IMG/VR virus record: IMGVR_UViG_3300034418_004424
Coordinates: 1 to 33,350 of that record
DNA length: 33,350 nt
Direction: 5' to 3' (one strand)
Source of the DNA: a virus
Made by a program: the position numbers and the translations under genes. This document shows positions 15,665-30,316 of this stretch, one piece after another. Below the pieces are notes generated by a model. That model was not told the DNA's origin. It did not search any database and saw only the letters and a list, made by a program, of their open reading frames with translations. Numbering within the stretch: the stretch's first letter is position 1; every line of letters starts with the position of its first letter.

Positions 15665-15689
15665 AATTCGTTTGTATTTCATTTGTAGA

Positions 15690-29845: not shown

Positions 29846-30072
29846 TGTAGAACGTCGGTCAACGGTGGGTTCTACATAATACAAATCGCGTACCATGGGG
29901 AATTAGCAAACGCGAAAGGTCAACCTTAATTCAAACGACCGCTAAAACTTGTTTACGCAAGTGGAATTGAATAATTGATGAATCGTAAAATTACATCAAT
30001 CCCTATTTACGAATCGCATTGATGACGAGAATAAATAAGGTCGGTAGCTAGGGCTACCTATACCCAATACCG
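29846..30072 (+). ncRNA. Structured RNA / long leader with pseudoknot, family unknown
   Basis: The plus strand has a series of perfect stems: TGTAGAAC/GTTCTACA (29846-29853 / 29869-29876), TCGCGT/ACGCGA (29886-29891 / 29910-29915), ATTCAA/TTGAAT (29929-29934 / 29967-29972) enclosing ACTTG/CAAGT (29947-29951 / 29958-29962), ATTGATG/CATCAAT (29974-29980 / 29994-30000), CGTAAA/TTTACG (29984-29989 / 30006-30011) crossing the last one as an H-type pseudoknot, and GGTAGC-TAGG-GCTACC (30043-30058). CATCAAT can also pair with a second ATTGATG at 30018-30024, and CGGTA/TACCG (30042-30046 / 30068-30072) excludes the last hairpin, so two states are possible. Neither tmRNA, hammerhead nor a riboswitch that I know fits. 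It could be a free RNA or a regulatory leader of the two ORFs. Confidence 0.6.
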
Positions 30073-30115: not shown

Positions 30116-30316
30116 ATGAAATTAATAGACAAGTTAAAGAAAGAAGATCATAGAAAAATATTATTGCAACAGGCATCAAAAGCGACATTGTTTGAATTAC
30201 AACATTCTAAGTATGCGATGAATTTATCTATAAATGCATGTTTTGAAATATCTAATCTTGTGATTCATTCTACACCTGTTAGATTGAAGTGGGTTTATAA
30301 TTTGTTCAATGATTAA
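30116..30316 (+). CDS. 66-aa protein of the rightward operon
   Basis: The ATG is preceded by a very A/T-rich leader (ATAAATTATAAATATAAAAG). The product starts MKLIDKLKKEDHRKILLQQA and continues helical, with NACFEISNLVIHSTPVRLKW near the end. Basic, with no recognised family. Arg is coded by AGA twice and Ser often by TCT, unlike the CGT/CGA/TCG-rich leftward genes, which suggests another origin (a moron). Its stop overlaps the start of the 29-aa peptide. Confidence 0.65.
   Translation: MKLIDKLKKEDHRKILLQQASKATLFELQHSKYAMNLSINACFEISNLVIHSTPVRLKWVYNLFND

Follow-up and report, generated by a model that had tools for sequence, protein, structure and literature searches.

Does the segment at 29974−30024 of a virus contig, in which short words recur together with their complements, form part of a structured RNA, and does that RNA switch between two folds? 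The segment lies in the 33,350-base virus contig IMGVR_UViG_3300034418_004424, analyzed over its whole length and referred to here as the window. The first and last 99 bp of the contig are identical (1−99 and 33252−33350), as would be expected if the genome, at about 33,251 bp, were circular or terminally redundant. The terminase is nearest, of those in annotated phages, to the terminases of Flavobacterium phages, and the host is therefore likely a member of the Bacteroidota. We consider a leader RNA plausible at this locus and give a probability of roughly 45% to the reading that the segment is part of a folded 5′ leader of ~230 nt (about 29847−30075) at the head of a short rightward phage transcript. 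The transcription of this leader, its tertiary pairing and any effect on expression are what we infer from the results below.

The words named in the original prediction are all where it had placed them: ATTGATG at 29974 and 30018, CATCAAT at 29994, CGTAAA at 29984, and TTTACG at 29952 and 30006, with no further copies of any of them in 29841−30200. An H-type pseudoknot with stems of 7 and 6 bp had been proposed. The complementarity holds, with the correction that the second stem is actually 7 bp long (UCGUAAA/UUUACGA, 29983−30012) and falls within the imperfect 10-nt inverted repeat GAATCGTAAA/TTTACGAATC. When the 276-nt region was shuffled 4000 times with its dinucleotides preserved, 149 shuffles held a pseudoknot of 7 + 6 bp, as did 36 of 480 genome windows (276 nt, half-overlapping, both strands), so that a single one is unremarkable. 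Duplication of the pairing partners of both stems is uncommon. A pseudoknot with this double duplication was found in 5/4000 shuffles of the same region and in 6/480 genome windows, some of which may overlap the element itself, and the statistic was devised post hoc, with the feature already seen. Two tiny plus-strand ORFs, 29978−30022 (14 codons) and 30022−30051 (9 codons), overlap as TGATG; each has its start codon inside an ATTGATG copy and T at −3.

The predicted plus-strand fold opens with hairpin P1 (29846−29876), an 8-bp stem of UGUAGAAC/GUUCUACA, for which 29847−29876 gave z −3.17 and none of 200 shuffles was as good. Helix P2 (UCGCGU/ACGCGA, 29886−29915) follows, and a closing helix GACC/GGUC (29937−30042) surrounds the domain of the original prediction with a mean P of 0.65 in the isolated domain vs 0.23 in the whole leader. 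Inside this domain, hairpin A (ACUUG-UUUACG-CAAGU, 29947−29962, mean P ~0.5) presents a 6-nt loop that is exactly the upstream TTTACG copy. The pairing of the first ATTGATG with CATCAAT was recovered as the base of a stable predicted hairpin B (AUUGAUG+AAU / AUU+A+CAUCAAU, 29974−30000, mean P ~0.9), the 6-nt loop of which is exactly CGUAAA (29984−29989). Further downstream, the fold contains the hairpin GGUAGC-UAGG-GCUACC (30043−30058). An alternative long-range helix, AUGGGGA (29895−29901) with UCCCUAU (30000−30006), appeared mainly in partial transcripts.

Judged by nested energies, the plus strand of 29841−30115 folds ordinarily (z −0.84), the domain 29932−30080 reached z −2.31, and the longer segment 29846−30480 z −2.44 (20 shuffles only), with an unstructured ORF part at 30116−30440 (z +0.90). 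Pseudoknot-tolerant folding, suggested with the original prediction as a check, came out in favor of structure. More specifically, with crossings allowed, the helix-packing score, a simple in-house measure that ignores sterics, was 43.9 on the plus strand against 30.7 ± 5.0 in shuffles, with only 1 of 150 reaching that value. The minus strand scored 48.9, a level attained in 0/150 shuffles, and its nested fold gave z −2.15. High scores on both strands are expected of inverted repeats, and with a minus strand at least equal to the plus strand, structure alone does not decide between them. These results support a pairing potential beyond chance.

The original prediction had gone further and called the element bistable rather than a product of chance. 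The excess of pairing over shuffles supports one half of this statement; the other half is not supported, as the alternative fold is 6−7 kcal/mol worse. In that alternative, the second ATTGATG (30018−30024) was to take CATCAAT away from hairpin B. Under nested energy models, which carry no pseudoknot energies, forcing the 29994/30018 stem costs 6−7 kcal/mol, its P is near 0, and it stayed near 0 at equilibrium as the transcript was lengthened stepwise. A bistable RNA switch, which would have two folds of similar energy, is accordingly not supported by these models.

The other proposed exchange, in which the second TTTACG takes CGTAAA, is sound in its loop complementarity and is better read as a hairpin A whose loop could kiss CGUAAA. 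By its sequence, the CGUAAA loop can pair either with the 3′ UUUACGA or with the UUUACG loop of hairpin A, and the pseudoknot stem would compete with the loop-loop pairing. A kissing loop was obtained under an energy-based criterion, and none was found in the element when both stems had to contain at least 5 contiguous pairs. Because loop-loop matches of the A/B kind also occurred in 10/300 shuffles and 13/288 genome windows, the match is suggestive only. An H-type fold would also be cramped, since with hairpin B fully formed at 10 bp a linker of only 5 nt (30001−30005) has to span a long helix.

Upstream of the fold, a pattern scan returned a candidate Bacteroidota sigma-A-type promoter on the plus strand, TTTG-N19-TATCATTG (29812−29842). 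The box is placed at −12 to −5 from the start (PMC9723704), and the predicted +1 is therefore 29847, one base inside P1. The relaxed promoter pattern has 53 plus-strand matches. The TATCATTG box recurs in a promoter-like motif that the phage repeats on its minus strand, where it comes with CTTGC(A/G)GG, whereas the plus-strand copy is without this extension. At the other end, a terminator-like hairpin, ACCGC..GCGGT with A and T runs at its flanks (30444−30478), could act on either strand; it forms at the 3′ end of the predicted fold of 29846−30480 and was not among the calls of a simple terminator scan.

Between the folded leader and the downstream ORFs lies an AT-rich stretch. ORF1 (30116−30316, plus strand, 66 aa) belongs to no family, without a match in Pfam, PHROG, PADLOC or NCBIfam, and ORF2 (30309−30398, plus strand), which overlaps its end and would encode a hydrophobic peptide of 29 aa, may be spurious. 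Of the listed ORFs, those accepted as genes are all on the minus strand, so ORF1/ORF2 would be the exception, and the candidate transcript runs against the other genes. The codon usage of ORF1 is unlike that of the phage's genes, and the codon scores of both ORFs fall within the range of plus-strand ORFs taken as spurious, which were scored as one set; the two may be foreign genes or non-genes. In its AT-rich surroundings, the start codon of ORF1 is preceded by A at −3, which in Flavobacterium johnsoniae acts as a positive determinant (PMC6847099). The AlphaFold model of ORF1 alone has two helices, one long and one short (mean pLDDT 87.5, pTM 0.45), and was given no evidential weight.

A search for relatives was made at several levels. 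Across the whole window, Rfam 15 (riboswitch, ribozyme, group I intron, tmRNA, GOLLD, ROOL and others) returned nothing at gathering score, and the sub-gathering matches in 29700−30520 did not overlap 29841−30115. No homologue was found by blastn of the region against phage and plasmid records, and exact 17- to 21-mers scanned in IMG/VR, one of them also in genome_contigs, yielded none that was convincing. Two IMG/VR pattern matches with 20/21 bases shared (L099, L100) lie in coding-looking frames and were taken as chance, as was a third with only 17 bases in common (L101); a short match in L047 is inside an ORF. Neither P0001 nor P0002 had a match in IMG/VR. A covariance model of the plus-strand domain, built from a single sequence, was run over 978,638 bases and, the window itself aside, produced no match with an E value better than 2.7, all of them weak. 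The terminase search yielded 30 loci, from which larger contigs were then retrieved, and no terminase relatives in genome_contigs. DNA search of 17 records and nhmmer on the retrieved loci gave nothing convincing. Several terminase-relative contigs carry HNH homologues, and in six of them, inspected by eye, the sequence beside the HNH gene is different, with no similar element. Within the records reached, the plus-strand cassette thus seems to be peculiar to this phage, and nearer relatives possibly lie outside them. The element is at present a candidate without comparative support.

How the leader might work can be sketched. Transcription from the candidate plus-strand promoter would produce a leader starting at ~29847, hairpin B would fold while being made, and its CGUAAA loop would then dock on the loop of hairpin A or on UUUACGA just downstream. 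The resulting compact pseudoknotted leader could tune or stabilize the downstream message, or could serve as a protein-binding RNA. One specific version, a lineage-specific leader RNA whose 6-nt loop kisses the upstream hairpin loop or closes the downstream pseudoknot and thereby controls a short counter-oriented transcript, is a long shot in our estimation.

Known systems offer partial parallels. The element resembles the H-type pseudoknots and intramolecular kissing loops of leader RNAs in having a 6-nt loop with two full complements, one in a downstream strand and one in a neighboring 6-nt loop; unlike them, it is known from a single sequence, with no homologue found. Type III toxin-antitoxin RNAs (ToxI-like) share with the element the order of a promoter-like box and a pseudoknot-prone RNA ahead of a small ORF, with a terminator-like hairpin behind it. 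However, it has no tandem array of a pseudoknot unit, with only one two-copy 8-nt direct repeat, no ToxN-like neighbor, and an ORF1 outside all families searched, and a type III antitoxin RNA was rejected. The large phage RNAs GOLLD and ROOL are likewise folded with many long-range pairings, whereas the element has a far shorter structured part and matches no Rfam family at gathering score. If transcribed and folded as proposed, the element would add a regulatory RNA not covered by Rfam, from a phage whose terminase has its nearest annotated counterparts in Flavobacterium phages, and its loop with two partner options would make a compact test case.

The leader reading draws on scores above shuffles, hairpin B, a sigma-A-like box with its +1 in P1, and the A at −3 of ORF1; it has to accommodate the ordinary full nested fold, the equally good minus strand, the lack of a homologue, the 53 relaxed promoter matches, the ORF1 codons and the tight geometry. 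Some of these points would suit plain chance, that is, a non-conserved spacer in which complementary words were spotted post hoc. Such a spacer would be expected to show no conservation and an ordinary nested energy, and both 7 + 6 pseudoknots and loop-loop matches recur at the shuffle and genome frequencies given above. It would account poorly for a double duplication seen in just 5/4000 shuffles, a total helix score matched by 1/150, and a predicted start at most one base from P1, and we regard it as unlikely.

A DNA element would involve no folded RNA; its inverted and direct repeats would be bound by a protein, either a repressor or, at an origin, the DnaA-domain-IV-like protein of the phage. 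High inverted-repeat scores on both strands and the position between divergent ORFs would fit, and the phage gene at 21716−22207 (minus strand) encodes such a protein, small and equipped with the C-terminal DNA-binding domain (domain IV) of DnaA. However, the TTATNCACA box is absent from the entire genome, the motif spacing is irregular with a single 8-nt direct repeat in two copies, and TTTACG, ATTGATG and CATCAAT occur only here among the ORF-free gaps of the genome, which makes this explanation improbable. The minus-strand fold and helix score would also suit a structured leader of the HNH gene, the next gene downstream in that orientation. Against this stand the terminator-like hairpin upstream, the dissimilar sequence preceding the HNH gene in the relatives inspected, and the absence of a TA-NN-[AT]TTG box on the minus strand in 29321−31282; we consider such a leader quite unlikely.

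Two further observations concern the minus strand. Its promoter-like repeats, in which CTTGC(A/G)GG precedes a TA-box with TTG at its end, form a family at 15687−15738, 15894−15945, 16368−16419, 17024−17091, 28386−28437, 28646−28697 and 29311−29362, and might be recognized by a sigma-70/ECF-like phage protein (24733−25272). Furthermore, 26251−26577 encodes a DUF3127 / single-strand DNA-binding-like protein.
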